Assembly (NCBI GenBank): GCA_020072565.1
Contig: JAIQGI010000020.1
Coordinates: forward strand, 1 to 64,000
Source of the DNA: Terriglobia bacterium
GTDB taxonomy: Bacteria > Acidobacteriota > UBA6911
Direction: 5' to 3'
Length of the DNA: 64,000 bases
Positions 39,695-47,911 of the stretch are shown one piece after another. Under the pieces are notes generated by a model that did not search any database, was not told the origin of the DNA, and was given only the letters and a program-made list of their open reading frames with translations. Positions within the stretch are counted from its first letter, which is position 1. Every line of letters begins with the position of its first letter. The position numbers and the translations under genes were made by a program.

Positions 39695-40276
39695 CCACGC
39701 TCCGAAGGCGTGGCTTTGGCTTGCCCCGCAAAGCGGGGCGAGTCACATATCAGAAGGCCCCATTGGGGCCGTTCAGATTATAAATCATCGCATCCCTAGC
39801 CAATCGTCTCCTCACCAGTTGCACGCACCTTCACCCAGCCCCGCGCCCCCGGCATCTTCACCCAGCCCCGCAAGGGGGCGACCCCAGCATCTTCACCCAG
39901 CCCCGCAGAGGCGACCCCAGCATCTTCACCCAGCCCCGCAGAGGCGACCCCAGCATCTTCACCCAGCCCCGCAGGGGCGACCGCAGCATCTTCACCCAGC
40001 CCCGCAGGGGCGACCGCAGCCAACAGCCCGGGGCGCAAGCCCCGGGTCGAGGCGATCGCAAAAAGGAGCCCTGTAGGGGCGATGCAGCTCACCCGCTTTT
40101 TCTGTGTCGCCCTGTCGGGGCTCATCCTTGAACTCCGGTCCAATCCCAGGCCTTGCGGCCTGGGCTGTAAACTGCAGCCGCCCCTTCGGGGCTAGTAGCA
40201 ATCCACGGATCGCCGTAACGGCTGAGCATGCCAGGGTCGCACGGTCAGAGGCCGTGGGTTTGGCACGCACCCACGG
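39695..40276. repeat. Mosaic array of about ten different GC-rich hairpins
   Basis: Small palindromes with unrelated stems follow one another: 39695-39713 (CCACGC/GCGTGG), 39723-39739 (GCCCCGC/GCGGGGC), 39756-39770 (GGCCCC/GGGGCC), 40027-40046 (CCCGGGGC/GCCCCGGG), 40145-40164 (CCCAGGCC/GGCCTGGG), 40180-40192 (GCCCC/GGGGC) and 40252-40276 (CCGTGGGT/ACCCACGG), plus GCCCTGTAGGGGC-type pieces. This is like REP/BIME islands but with varied stems. Confidence 0.7.
39852..40018. repeat. Five tandem copies of a 33-bp unit
   Basis: Unit starts at 39852, 39887, 39920, 39953 and 39986. The first copy is 35 bp because of two extra G bases; the others are exactly 33 bp. Each carries GCATCTTCACCCAGCCCCGC followed by AGAGGCGACCCCA or AGGGGCGACCGCA. 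The GCCCCGCAGGGGC core is itself a small hairpin. Copies 2-3 and 4-5 share the same variant, a sign of local duplication. Confidence 0.85.
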
Positions 40277-42428: not shown

Positions 42429-43808
42429 CTATCGGAACATTGTGAAAAGGCCGACCTTCCACCCGCGGAACGGAGGCAGAAAAATGCACTGTCCCGAGGA
42501 GCACACCTCTCCGCCGCGCATGGCGCCCGTGGAGAATTCGAAGTAGGAATCCCTCTTCAGGTTGATTCGGAATCCGCCGCTGTGAAAGTGATTCCGGCCG
42601 TCAATCGGCTGCCGGGAATATTGTTTTTGAAAAAAGACCGCTCCGTGGGGAGCCCATGAGACCTGCGAAAAATAGTCGGTCTCGTTGAATTGATAGTAGC
42701 GTTGAGTATATCGCTTGTCGCGCGATGACAAATCGACGGCAACTGCATCGGTGAGCCGGTACAGGATATGCCCTTCGGTGATCTTCACAGGGTAGAAGAC
42801 ATCCTTGAGACCGTAGCTGAAGGAACCATCCAGTTTTCCCCAGAGCTCCGTGGCGTTCAAGCCCGCGTACACCTGAGGGCCAACCACGCCGGCTTCCTGG
42901 ACCCGGCCTATGCTTACAAACGGGATGATGTCGGGATTGAAGAATGAATACTGAGAATACAGCCGGAAGGTCTCCGAATCGTTCAGATCGCTCGCCTCGT
43001 CTCCTCGATCCGCCGACGGAGGATTGTTGAGCTCGTTGCTGAAATTCTTGTACTTCTTGTATTCGAAGAGAAGGGAGACGTTGTTGCGCGTCCAGCCCAG
43101 GTTGGCGTAGTACCCGGAACCGTCCATCAGGAACGGGTCCCGAAAATTCAGCCGGCTGATTTCCGCATAGTAGCTGAAGCCTCCCGGAAATTTGTCTGCG
43201 CTCCAGCTGACGGACCAGGCCAGCCGGTCGCCCAGCTGCTGAAACGTGTTCGAGTCGTGGATAAAGCTGGCGTGGACACCGATGCGGTTGCCCTTGTAGT
43301 AATCACGAACGGCCTCGCCTCCCGCAACCTGCCATTTCTGCTGCTCCAACTCGTCCTCGACACTCCCGCCGAGCGTTCGAAAATCCCAGCCGCGCGCATG
43401 GTAATGAAAATCGCCGCCGAGGACCGTCCGGTCGCGGAATGCCTTTTCGTTCTGCAACACCGACAGAACCAACCCGCGGCCAAGCACGGAGTGGAAATCG
43501 CCGGCCTGGATTTCAAAGCTGTCCGTCGCGTACTGTGCGTACTTCCGGAACACGTCGTACTGAGCCTTCGGTAACGTCCAGTCGGATGACTGCTTGTAGA
43601 AATTGTGGCCGCGCAGAGTCAAGCCGGTTGCCCAGTTAGCCCACTTCACAAATAATGAGGATGAGTTGTAAAACTGATTGGGCCCGGTGGCGAGCGCGTT
43701 CCTTTGATAAGTAAAATCGTTGGTGAACAGAAAAGTGGGCTTATTCTCCTGGGCATTTCCACTCAGGCAGAAGAGCATCACCGTCCATGGAACCACGCCC
43801 CATTTCAT
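42429..43808 (-). CDS. DUF6029-like outer-membrane beta-barrel protein
   Basis: A 459-residue protein with a signal peptide (about 1-19). It then has almost continuous alternating amphipathic strands rich in Tyr, Phe, Trp and Asn, ending in an aromatic Phe-Arg. This fits a monomeric outer-membrane barrel and resembles proteins annotated DUF6029, which I recall next to TlpA and Omp28-like genes. Its ATG overlaps the stop of the TlpA gene by four bases, so the two are translationally coupled. The role is unknown; it could be the outer-membrane partner of the redox proteins in the same cluster. Confidence 0.75.
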   Translation of the reverse strand: MKWGVVPWTVMLFCLSGNAQENKPTFLFTNDFTYQRNALATGPNQFYNSSSLFVKWANWATGLTLRGHNFYKQSSDWTLPKAQYDVFRKYAQYATDSFEIQAGDFHSVLGRGLVLSVLQNEKAFRDRTVLGGDFHYHARGWDFRTLGGSVEDELEQQKWQVAGGEAVRDYYKGNRIGVHASFIHDSNTFQQLGDRLAWSVSWSADKFPGGFSYYAEISRLNFRDPFLMDGSGYYANLGWTRNNVSLLFEYKKYKNFSNELNNPPSADRGDEASDLNDSETFRLYSQYSFFNPDIIPFVSIGRVQEAGVVGPQVYAGLNATELWGKLDGSFSYGLKDVFYPVKITEGHILYRLTDAVAVDLSSRDKRYTQRYYQFNETDYFSQVSWAPHGAVFFQKQYSRQPIDGRNHFHSGGFRINLKRDSYFEFSTGAMRGGEVCSSGQCIFLPPFRGWKVGLFTMFR

Positions 43809-44281
43809 CGGTTCAAGCCCTCTATGATTTTCTGTATTTCCTTTTCGTCGCCCGGAAGATAACCCGTGCGGGAGTAGACGATGCTGCCGGCCTTGTCGAC
43901 CACCAATGTGAAGGGCACCTTCTTCTCGGGATCGAACATCTGGATGACTTTGCCGTCGATATCCAGCAGAACCGTGAAGTCGAACTTTTTCCCCGCAATA
44001 TAGGGCCTGACGCCGACCATGGTGCTGGAATCATCCGTCGAGATGGCGATGATCCGGATGGCAGGGTGCTCCTTTTTGATTTTGTCCAGTTTGGTCAGCA
44101 GCTGCTTGCAGGGGACACACCAGGTCGCCCAGAAGCTGATCACCATGACTTCCTTGCCGACGTGGTCGCGGGTGTTGAACTGTGACCCGTTGAGGTCCTG
44201 CAAGGAAAAACCAGGAAGGATTCCCGCCCGAGCAGTTGTCAATAATAGCAGTCCCGCTGCCAATCCAGCCGTCCATTTCAT
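43805..44281 (-). CDS. TlpA/ResA-family periplasmic thiol-disulfide oxidoreductase
   Basis: A 158-residue protein with a signal peptide (about 1-19) and a thioredoxin fold. The active site is C55-V-P-C58 in FWATWCVPCKQ, and the cis-Pro loop is KVPFTLVVDKAG. TlpA/ResA proteins keep cysteines reduced in the oxidising periplasm. A strong AGGAGGG precedes the start. It lies 105 bases after the cohesin-like gene and overlaps the barrel gene, and is a likely electron donor for the UxxC protein two genes upstream. Confidence 0.9.
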   Translation of the reverse strand: MKWTAGLAAGLLLLTTARAGILPGFSLQDLNGSQFNTRDHVGKEVMVISFWATWCVPCKQLLTKLDKIKKEHPAIRIIAISTDDSSTMVGVRPYIAGKKFDFTVLLDIDGKVIQMFDPEKKVPFTLVVDKAGSIVYSRTGYLPGDEKEIQKIIEGLNR

Positions 44282-44386: not shown

Positions 44387-46211
44387 TCAACGTATCGGCA
44401 CCGCGGAGAGAAAGTTGTAGGACGTGTCTCCGAAAAGCATGTACGCGTACACTTCAACGTCCGAGACCAGCCGAATGAAGCCCCCGGATTGGCTGCCTTT
44501 GAATTCGGGAATCAGCTGCTGGACCAGTTGGGCCGTTCTGCTGTTCGGGCCCAGTGCATATGGCGTTTGCGTGCCCGCGACCAGTTTGCCTTCCTTATCG
44601 TACAGCTCGAGCTGAATGTTCGCCGTGGCGATTGTGCTCGTGTTCACCAACGCCAGTCCGGTGAAGTAATCCACGTCTCCGATACGGCCCACGGCCACGT
44701 GACCGAAAAAGATTTCACGTTTGGCAGCCGACGTGGACATCAGGGGTAACGCCGCCAGGTAGGTGCCGGCGACCGGGTCCCCGAAGGTCATTGCTCCTAT
44801 CACCCCCTGGTCACTTGCCACCGACAGCGTGCCGACGAACACCTGTGATGTCGTCAGCGGATTCGCCAGACCAAACAGCTCCCATCCCGGACTGGAAAGC
44901 TGCGATTTGGCAGCCATGGATCGAACTACTGGCGCAGCCATCTCCTGTCCCTGTTCGTTCAACAACCGCAAGATGACCCGGCTGGTCTGGCTGGAGGGAT
45001 TGACCAGGGCGATCTGGGTGTTGATTCGCAGATTACTCCCCAGGTATCCGCTGGCAAATTGAGGGCCGGACAATCGATTGGGAACCATCGATCCATCCTG
45101 ACCATTCAGAGCAGCCAGCGCCTTGCCGGTGCCGAATCTCTCAAAGCCCAGCAACTGCCCGTCGGCGGCATTAACCTCCACATACCCGCTGGTCTGGCTG
45201 ATCTCCTGGACCGCAGTGCCGTGAGCCGCCACGACTGTTTGAGGAATCGCTGCCGACCATAGGAAAGACAATCCATGAAGCTGGAGCGTAGACCATATCG
45301 GCTCCGTCCATTGCCTCAACTCCCGTCGCGGAGGTCATGCCCTGGAGGAAGAAACCGCTGATGTCCGGCTGGCTTGACCGCACCTCAATCCATCCGTGCT
45401 CCACGCCCATGGCGGCCGGGCTGTTGAATATCTCCTCCGTTACCTTCGCCTCCTGACGCATAGGTGCCAGAACAACAGGCGGTGAGGGATTGACGGCAGA
45501 GGACAACTGAGCCAGGGCGCCGTGGCGGTCCCAACCGAACACCTGGATGGTGGCCGTCTCTTTCCCTTCATTCAGGAAGGCCACGCCCTGGAAAGTGCCC
45601 GGCATGGAAAACCAGGAGGGACAGAAAAGACTCGGGACGGTTGTGGATGACCCGATCGACAGGGAGTACGAGTGATCAACCCAGGGAATCCGTTGGGTTG
45701 GGGCGCCGGCCGTCGTAGGCACACCTATCAACGCGCCCGGATGAATCGTGCGCGCCGAGCCGGCCAGGAATGATGCGCTGCCGGGTCTCGTGAGTTGAAA
45801 AACCAGGCGTGCCAGCTCGACCTGCATGCCCGGATTTTCGGTGCCGCTCCGGGTGTTCATCAGGGTGACGAAGCCTCTGGCGTTGGCGACCGCTACGTCC
45901 GTATATGCAAATCCGGCATCCGAATAGCCGGGGGCTTGTCCGGAGCTTACCGAAAGCAGGAGGACGCGGGACGAATCGAATCCTACCGGAATAGAGAATC
46001 CGGTCAAGATGGGATTGTCGCCGCCAGATGCCGTTACCGAACTCAGGTCTGCGAAGGCTCGCACTTCGAGCTGGCTGTCCGCCATCGACGGGTTCGCAGG
46101 TTTGAACTGCAAGGTGATCGCAGCCGCGCCGGTGAAAGCGTTCTGTGCGCATACGACAAGACCCGACGCAAGGCAGAACCACATTCCAAGCAGGAATCTT
46201 ACCGCTGACAT
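44387..46211 (-). pseudogene. Secreted cohesin-like / beta-sandwich protein, broken by frameshift
   Basis: Two open segments in different frames (46211-45171 and about 45319-44387) together make one secreted protein. The first has a signal peptide (about 1-21), a cohesin-like domain at about 30-165 (GFSIPVGFDSSRVLLLSV, then ANARGFVTLMNTRSG) and the start of the beta-sandwich repeats. The second continues those repeats to VPIR. Near 45240-45270 the first frame reaches a YAPASWIVFP-like block. The second frame then enters at PQTVVAAHGTAVQE, so roughly 30-40 residues of a repeat seem missing as well. Either a true deletion or an assembly error is possible. GGGGGAG precedes ATG 46211. Confidence 0.65.
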
Positions 46212-46285: not shown

Positions 46286-47482
46286 TCAGCGCCTGAGTTT
46301 TTTTATCTGAACGGCGGCACCTGTCTTGGGCAGAAGGGTTTCGAAATAGACCAGATCCAGAATATCAACGACTCCATCTTCGTTCAGGTCGGCACCCGGC
46401 AGGAGAAACGCTTTGTTCTCGAGCAGATACTCGGTCAAAAGCCTGCGATCAACTTCGTTGATCACCCCGTCCGCATTGAAATCGCCTTTGTACCCGATTG
46501 CAAACAGGCCGGAAACAGCTCGTGTTCCGCCGTAAGGGTCGCTAACTGCCAGCAGGCATTGGGAGGAATTGATCTGGGGTACCGTCCAGCTGTATTGACC
46601 TGTCCCGGAGGAAGCGGTCTGGATTGCCTTCCAACTCTGTCCACCGTTGTCGGAGTACTCCACTTGAACAGCTCCCAGGGGACGATCGGACGACCATGCA
46701 ATGGAATGCGCAGAATTCCTCAGCCACATGGCGCCTGTTGCAGGTCCTCCCGACATCTTGATGGTCGGGATCGTACTCTCCAAGGGCAACATCGCACCTT
46801 GCAGAATTCGCTTATCAGTGGCCTGGAAAAAAACGACGATCGAACAGTAATTCCAGTCAGGCTGCACGGAAAACTGTTGGGTGGAGGCGGCATTTGCGCC
46901 CGGGTCCAGCGTCATAGTCTGCCCGGCGGCATTCGGCAGCATGGCGCGGCAGACGAAATCCACGATATCCATGTCCATCCATCGGTAAAAGCGGTGGCGT
47001 TCGACCAAAGCCACATGAAGAACGCCGCTCAGCCTCTGGGACGAAGTGTTGGCGATTTCCACGCGCACCTGGTTGGCAGACTCCAGAGACAACGAGAAAT
47101 CCACGGTTGGAGACACGGCAGCTGCCTGATCATAGGGGTAAACATATTGGCTGTACATGCTGCCGGATGGAAGTCCCCCGCGCCTCTCGATGGTGCCGTC
47201 AAACAAAACACGGGGGGTACCAGCGCCGGCTCCATAGTACTGGGATCGAGTGGTGAAGGCTCCGCCGCTGTCGAAGGAGTCTTCGTGGTAGGCGATCACC
47301 GCCAAAGCCTCCGGCTTCTCCTGCTTCAGTTGTTCCAGCCCGCGCTCCGCGCTGGGACAATACGTTCAAGATATTCCTGTAAAGATCTCGGCGATCACCA
47401 CCTTCTGACTCGCGCCGTAGGCCGAAGGGAGTGCGGCAGTGACAAGACAGAAAGCAAGAATCCCGCTGATTCGTGGTCGCAT
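46286..47482 (-). CDS. Omp28-like thioredoxin-fold protein with dockerin; candidate selenoprotein (UGA at codon 39)
   Basis: From ATG 47482 (GGGAGGGA before it) the frame runs 398 codons to the stop at 46286 with one interruption, TGA at 47368-47366. Residues 1-23 are a signal peptide. Then EIFTGIS-U39-T-Y-C42-PSAERG matches the Omp28-like FTGTWCxYCP motif, with UGA exactly at the first redox cysteine. The fold continues through ALAVIAYHEDSFDS and TPRVLFDG. A beta-sandwich segment (about 215-330) precedes a dockerin-type tail with two Ca-binding repeats (GDFNADGVINEVD and GADLNEDGVVDILD). Conventional gene calling would start at a false TTG at 47305 and lose the redox site. A nonsense change from TGC/TGT is the alternative. 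First gene of the minus-strand cluster. Confidence 0.75.
47330..47360 (-). promoter_or_regulatory. Candidate bacterial SECIS hairpin
   Basis: Starting six bases after the UGA, TTGTCCCAGC pairs with GCTGGAACAA in nine of ten positions. The loop GCGGAGCGCGG can close two more pairs. The apical loop is about 18-23 bases after UGA and is G-rich, fitting the position and loop rule described for bacterial SECIS elements. Confidence 0.45.
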
Positions 47483-47911
47483 TGGATCCCTCCCAAGGTA
47501 TTCGACCGGCCGGCTGCTGTTTGCACTGCCAGCCGGCATCGCTTATCAGCGAAGGACAATATGGTTTGCCGGTTTCTTGGATATCCAAACCATTAGATAC
47601 GAACTGTCCCCTTGCGGTTCAGAAGCCGGGAGTTCCCGCCGGGGGCTATAATAGCAACCTATCTCTTTCTCTTTTGTGACACAAGGGAAAAGCGAACGGT
47701 GATCTTTAGGTTGCATCGAGGAAACGACTTGCGTTACCATTTAAATTGAAATTACCTTCAGGTTCGTCAGAGCAGATTGAATCAGAATCATGCGGCCGGA
47801 TCACCAGCGGTCGTAATTCGGACGAACTACGATACCGGACTTCATCTGCGGTGGGGAGTGTGAGTTCCTCGATGAATAGTGGACCACACATGCGCCGCCA
47901 GGGGAGTCAAT
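47483..47911. promoter_or_regulatory. Divergent promoter region between the two UGA-containing genes
   Basis: No gene is seen. The region must drive both genes. Notable sites are TATAAT at 47647-47652 and the palindrome TTGTGACACAA at 47674-47684, a CRP-like half-site pair. The leader of the metalloprotease would be long. AGGGGAG lies just before its ATG. Promoter assignments are tentative. Confidence 0.4.

Follow-up and report, generated by a model that had tools for sequence, protein, structure and literature searches.

Does the one in-frame TGA of an Omp28-like gene in the window (the whole stretch of DNA that was analysed, 64,000 nucleotides long) end translation, or is it decoded as selenocysteine (Sec)? 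Read on the minus strand of the assembly that is the source of the sequence, the gene extends over 398 codons from an ATG at 47482 to its true stop, a TGA at 46286-46288, and the single internal stop between the two is the TGA of codon 39. The gene very probably encodes a secreted selenoprotein with Sec at UGA 39, a call made because of the Sec/Cys column across homologues, the Sec machinery of the genome, a SECIS-fitting hairpin, a second selenoprotein gene, and a conserved neighbourhood. The frame is defined by the following features:

46286-47482, minus strand: gene very probably encoding an Omp28-like selenoprotein (398 aa, Sec at residue 39), from the frame and Pfam/NCBIfam matches
47488-47494, minus strand: Shine-Dalgarno sequence GGGAGGG, read from the sequence, ahead of the ATG at 47482
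47366-47368, minus strand: in-frame UGA, very probably read as selenocysteine (U39), from the codon column TGT/TGC/TGA in 70 homologous domains

The residues around codon 39 are FTGIS-U-TY-C, i.e., UxxC, and the TGA sits at the first Cys of a CxxC. The first-pass annotation had described a frame broken only by the TGA at codon 39, with the UGA at the first cysteine of a CxYC redox motif; both descriptions hold on the minus strand across 47482-46286, the motif reading U-T-Y-C. The window and six other stretches were scanned for TGA codons that could be read through and have a Cys three residues off: both flanks of the codon-39 TGA stay coding and belong to a recognisable family, and a family recognisable on both sides was found only in the window gene and in its homologue from genome G157. 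Were the TGA a nonsense mutation, or an assembly or sequencing error, the true codon would be TGC or TGT, one base away; such a change would look identical, and the nearest orthologue (from G100) does carry TGC. The sole stop in 398 codons nevertheless hits exactly the catalytic Cys, with coding kept on either side of it, and this explanation is very unlikely once the homologues, machinery, and RNA folding described below are also weighed. UGA might instead stop translation, with a second protein lacking the thioredoxin (Trx) motif starting downstream, e.g., at the TTG at 47305, from which an open frame of 339 codons extends. The product would, however, lack the signal peptide and half of the predicted Trx fold, and the N-terminal region stays in frame in homologues; the chance of such a restart is close to nil. 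With Sec at codon 39 as the preferred reading, any pipeline that takes TGA solely as a stop truncates the gene ahead of its active site.

Homologues were surveyed in up to 396 genomes of one phylum per search, and the column was read in distinct domains of the fetched loci. Among 70 homologous domains, which are mutually related and do not represent 70 independent events, the codon at the TGA column is TGT in 34, TGC in 29, and TGA in seven, with no others. The in-frame UGA thus pairs with a conserved Cys of the homologues (63 Cys codons and seven TGA), and neither TAA nor TAG occurs at this column in any of these domains. Besides that of the window, the TGA genes comprise three in G379 and single ones in G157, G299, and G416, the last being DUF1223-like; the recurrence of TGA at the same column in six further homologous genes, without TAA or TAG, argues against mutation or error. 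Aligning homologues at U39, a check that the first-pass annotation had proposed, hence returned Cys or TGA only. The same annotation had counted TGC or TGT in relatives as refuting Sec; this was mistaken, since such Sec/Cys pairs are expected and support the call.

The nearest full-length relative is the G100 orthologue (L026/L128), which shares 37-38% identity over about 380 residues, has TGC within a CQYC motif, and matches Omp28 (PF11551) over the cut-off at 50.8 bits, its dockerin being sub-threshold. The phylum survey yielded no close relative that combines this TGA with a dockerin, the nearest dockerin-type relative having Cys. Searching the query protein against genome contigs returned no relatives. 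Two TGA matches were dropped as selenoprotein examples, that of G267 having Cys at this column and that of G268 having its TGA elsewhere. In G416:C865 (L151, L203), TGA takes the place of the first Cys in the CxxC of a DUF1223-like gene, which may encode a DUF1223 selenoprotein. Related proteins on G299:C61 (L199) and G379:C69 (L201), with FESF[VL]RPG-U-P[IV]C and strong hairpins, form a further TGA-bearing branch.

The genome itself contains tRNA-Sec(UCA), selA, selB, and selD, so that all four components sought after the first pass were found; a complete Sec machinery is a further point against mutation or error. The tRNA-Sec scores 73.5 bits; of the tRNA-Sec model hits that were examined with ARAGORN, it alone has a UCA anticodon. 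A separate tRNA on a 5.3 kb contig (G000:C119:4882-4968; L015 1501-1589) has a Leu-like body with a long variable arm, but an anticodon that ARAGORN gives as UGG (Pro). A second selenoprotein gene, G000:C13:23279-23464 (L126, L129), is CMD/AhpD-like, with its second active-site Cys replaced by TGA (CDYU, a CxxU) and a strong SECIS-like hairpin; CMD/AhpD is a known selenoprotein type (PMC13188914). Elsewhere, tRNA-Sec is present in all three of the other TGA-gene genomes searched (G157, G379, and G416), and selB was found in G157.

Two selA (C23 and C19) and two selB (C3 and C19) accompany the one tRNA-Sec found (contigs C3, C19, C23, and C25; L111-L114); on C19, selA and selB flank a selD that is fused to an AhpD-like domain. 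By comparison, four other genomes checked (G001, G100, G065, and G157) have one selB each over the cut-off. The duplication bears on whether UGA might be read as Cys by a suppressor tRNA: in some Desulfobacterales, a selC* tRNA-Cys(UCA) operates with its own SelB*, and a second selB is part of selC* systems (PMC7609411); this genome, too, has one, together with a second selA. Here, however, the sole UCA-anticodon tRNA among the hits described above is tRNA-Sec, and the second selB adjoins selA and selD, pointing to selenium, which leaves decoding as Cys extremely unlikely. Misbinning of the Sec contigs is not indicated: their GC content is 0.586-0.595, and their tetranucleotide correlation with the window is 0.59-0.76, against 0.68-0.72 between parts of the window, a weak test in that G100, a different genome, reaches 0.43-0.62.

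If UGA 39 is decoded as Sec, the RNA just 3′ of it is of interest:

47330-47360, minus strand: SECIS-like hairpin with 9/10 pairs; the apical loop starts 18 nt past the UGA and begins with G

The hairpin, already reported in the first pass as having 9/10 pairs and lying six bases past the TGA, is present as described, with arms UUGUCCCAGC / GCUGGAACAA and its first base being the sixth after the TGA. Its stability falls within the top 2% of the gene's codon positions (7/384) and, among random positions in the window, within the top 4%; taken alone, it is only moderately unusual and constitutes weak evidence. The SECIS rule (PMC13188914), i.e., a loop of 3-9 nt with G in the first two positions, a spacing of 16-37 nt, and MFE ≤ -7.5, was applied together with a minimum of 4 uninterrupted pairs in the upper stem. 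All seven TGA genes, that of the window included, pass it, as does the CMD gene; the rule is permissive, with 31 of the 63 Cys homologues also passing. Folding z-scores are nonetheless lower for TGA genes than for Cys homologues (Mann-Whitney p = 0.006), and this better folding of the RNA after the TGA again speaks against mutation or error. The Cys orthologue of G100 fails the rule, with a z of +1.1. Upstream, the leader at 47484-47700 is slightly more stable in its fold than shuffled versions (z -1.9) and matched no Rfam family.

The protein itself can be divided as follows:

47411-47482, minus strand: predicted Sec-type signal peptide, residues 1-24, read from the sequence
46778-47410, minus strand: thioredoxin-like and Omp28/DUF1223-like region, residues 25-235, from sequence/profile comparison
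46352-46489, minus strand: type I dockerin, residues 332-377, PF00404 at 29.9 bits

Dockerin_1 exceeds its Pfam cut-off of 22.9 bits, bearing out the dockerin of the first-pass annotation. DUF1223 scores 27.3 bits, slightly under the Pfam cut-off of 30.7, and the NCBIfam matches Omp28_seleno and lipoprot_Omp28 are both sub-threshold; Omp28 (PF11551) over its cut-off is not among the Pfam matches of the window protein. A profile from five relatives matches the HBP35 structure 5y1a, the DUF1223 protein 2axo, and archaeal thioredoxins, the sequence-profile match to 5y1a having an E of 7e-9; together with the sub-threshold matches, this supports the original Omp28-like assignment. A single-sequence AlphaFold model was too poor (pLDDT 45), and a fold search on it was uninformative. 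Judged by its sequence, the window protein is most likely an oxidoreductase of the Trx/Omp28 type that is exported and also carries an Ig-like region and a dockerin.

Downstream, the following genes continue on the same strand:

45171-46211, minus strand: protein without a family match, with a signal-peptide-like start; next gene downstream
44387-45319, minus strand: protein without a family match; overlaps the preceding frame, true start uncertain
43805-44281, minus strand: TlpA/ResA-like thioredoxin, WCVPC; neighbour kept in G157 and G379
42429-43808, minus strand: DUF6029 protein, overlapping the TlpA gene by 4 bases; neighbour kept in G157 and G379

TlpA-like and DUF6029-like genes adjoin Omp28-type genes in two distant genomes, next to the Cys form in G157 and the TGA form in G379. 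This conserved set of Omp28, TlpA, and DUF6029 genes suggests that the three act in a shared thiol-disulfide pathway, with the TlpA/ResA-like thioredoxin being the probable redox partner of the selenoprotein. Also in the window, at 40145-40193 on the plus strand, lies an Acido-Lenti-1 RNA (Rfam RF01687) that barely exceeds the gathering score; short of proof, it suggests that the DNA comes from a member of Acidobacteriota. Two cohesin domains, possible dockerin partners, are encoded in large open frames at G000:C7:277356-277736 and 283369-283752.

Taken as a mechanism, SelB and Sec-tRNA(UCA) would read UGA 39 as Sec, aided by the hairpin just 3′, and the protein would then be exported. U-x-x-C, placed where the thioredoxin helix begins, would act as a selenol/thiol-disulfide oxidoreductase, much as the CxxC of HBP35; by this analogy, the protein is likely a secreted enzyme similar to HBP35, whose thioredoxin activity requires both active-site cysteines (PMC2907840). 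Electron exchange with the adjacent TlpA/ResA-like thioredoxin is probable, and the C-terminal dockerin probably serves as a tether to a surface protein, cohesin-bearing or otherwise. A fuller scheme, in which a cohesin-dockerin scaffold displays an exported Sec redox enzyme at the surface and a TlpA-like thioredoxin supplies it with electrons, while the two SelA/SelB pairs serve different selenoprotein messages, is speculative and rather unlikely as a whole.

How much of this is new? The first-pass annotation had proposed a new selenoprotein; the selenoprotein stands, but novelty at the family level does not. GOS_C, a UxxC Trx-fold selenoprotein family with 74 Sec-containing sequences, was reported in 2008 (PMC2398784), and a 2026 review links it to NCBIfam NF045500, "Omp28-related selenoprotein" (PMC13188914). 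What is new is a divergent branch that combines Trx/Omp28, an Ig-like region, and a dockerin in a recurring neighbourhood. The literature searched contained no description of the dockerin-bearing branch, nor any mention of Omp28 or HBP35 together with selenoproteins. Within one phylum, several branches of the Omp28/HBP35/DUF1223 superfamily, the dockerin branch included, have Sec in place of Cys at this codon, which makes the superfamily a good case for timing the gain or loss of Sec and connects selenium with the thiol-disulfide chemistry of exported proteins encoded next to TlpA and DUF6029 genes.

With NF045500/GOS_C, the window protein shares a predicted Trx-like fold and a UxxC at the same place, through a local match to window residues 25-121. 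That match, however, spans just model positions 37-142 of 377 and scores 49.1 bits against a curated cut-off of 200, which is reached by none of 396 genomes of the phylum; by the curated cut-off, the window protein is thus a relative of this family, expected to work in a similar way, rather than one of its members. DUF1223 proteins (PF06764, PDB 2axo) have the N-terminal CxxC region in common with it, and the DUF1223-like gene of G416 also has TGA, but the window protein scores below the family cut-off and possesses additional C-terminal domains. The G100 Cys orthologue resembles the window protein in its whole architecture and differs in having TGC in place of TGA and in being without a SECIS-like hairpin. 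HBP35 of Porphyromonas gingivalis (5y1a; PMC2907840) and the Omp28 lipoproteins of Bacteroidota likewise consist of an exported CxxC Trx domain followed by an Omp28-like domain; these, however, use Cys rather than Sec, and attach to the surface through a conserved C-terminal secretion domain, where the window protein instead has a dockerin.
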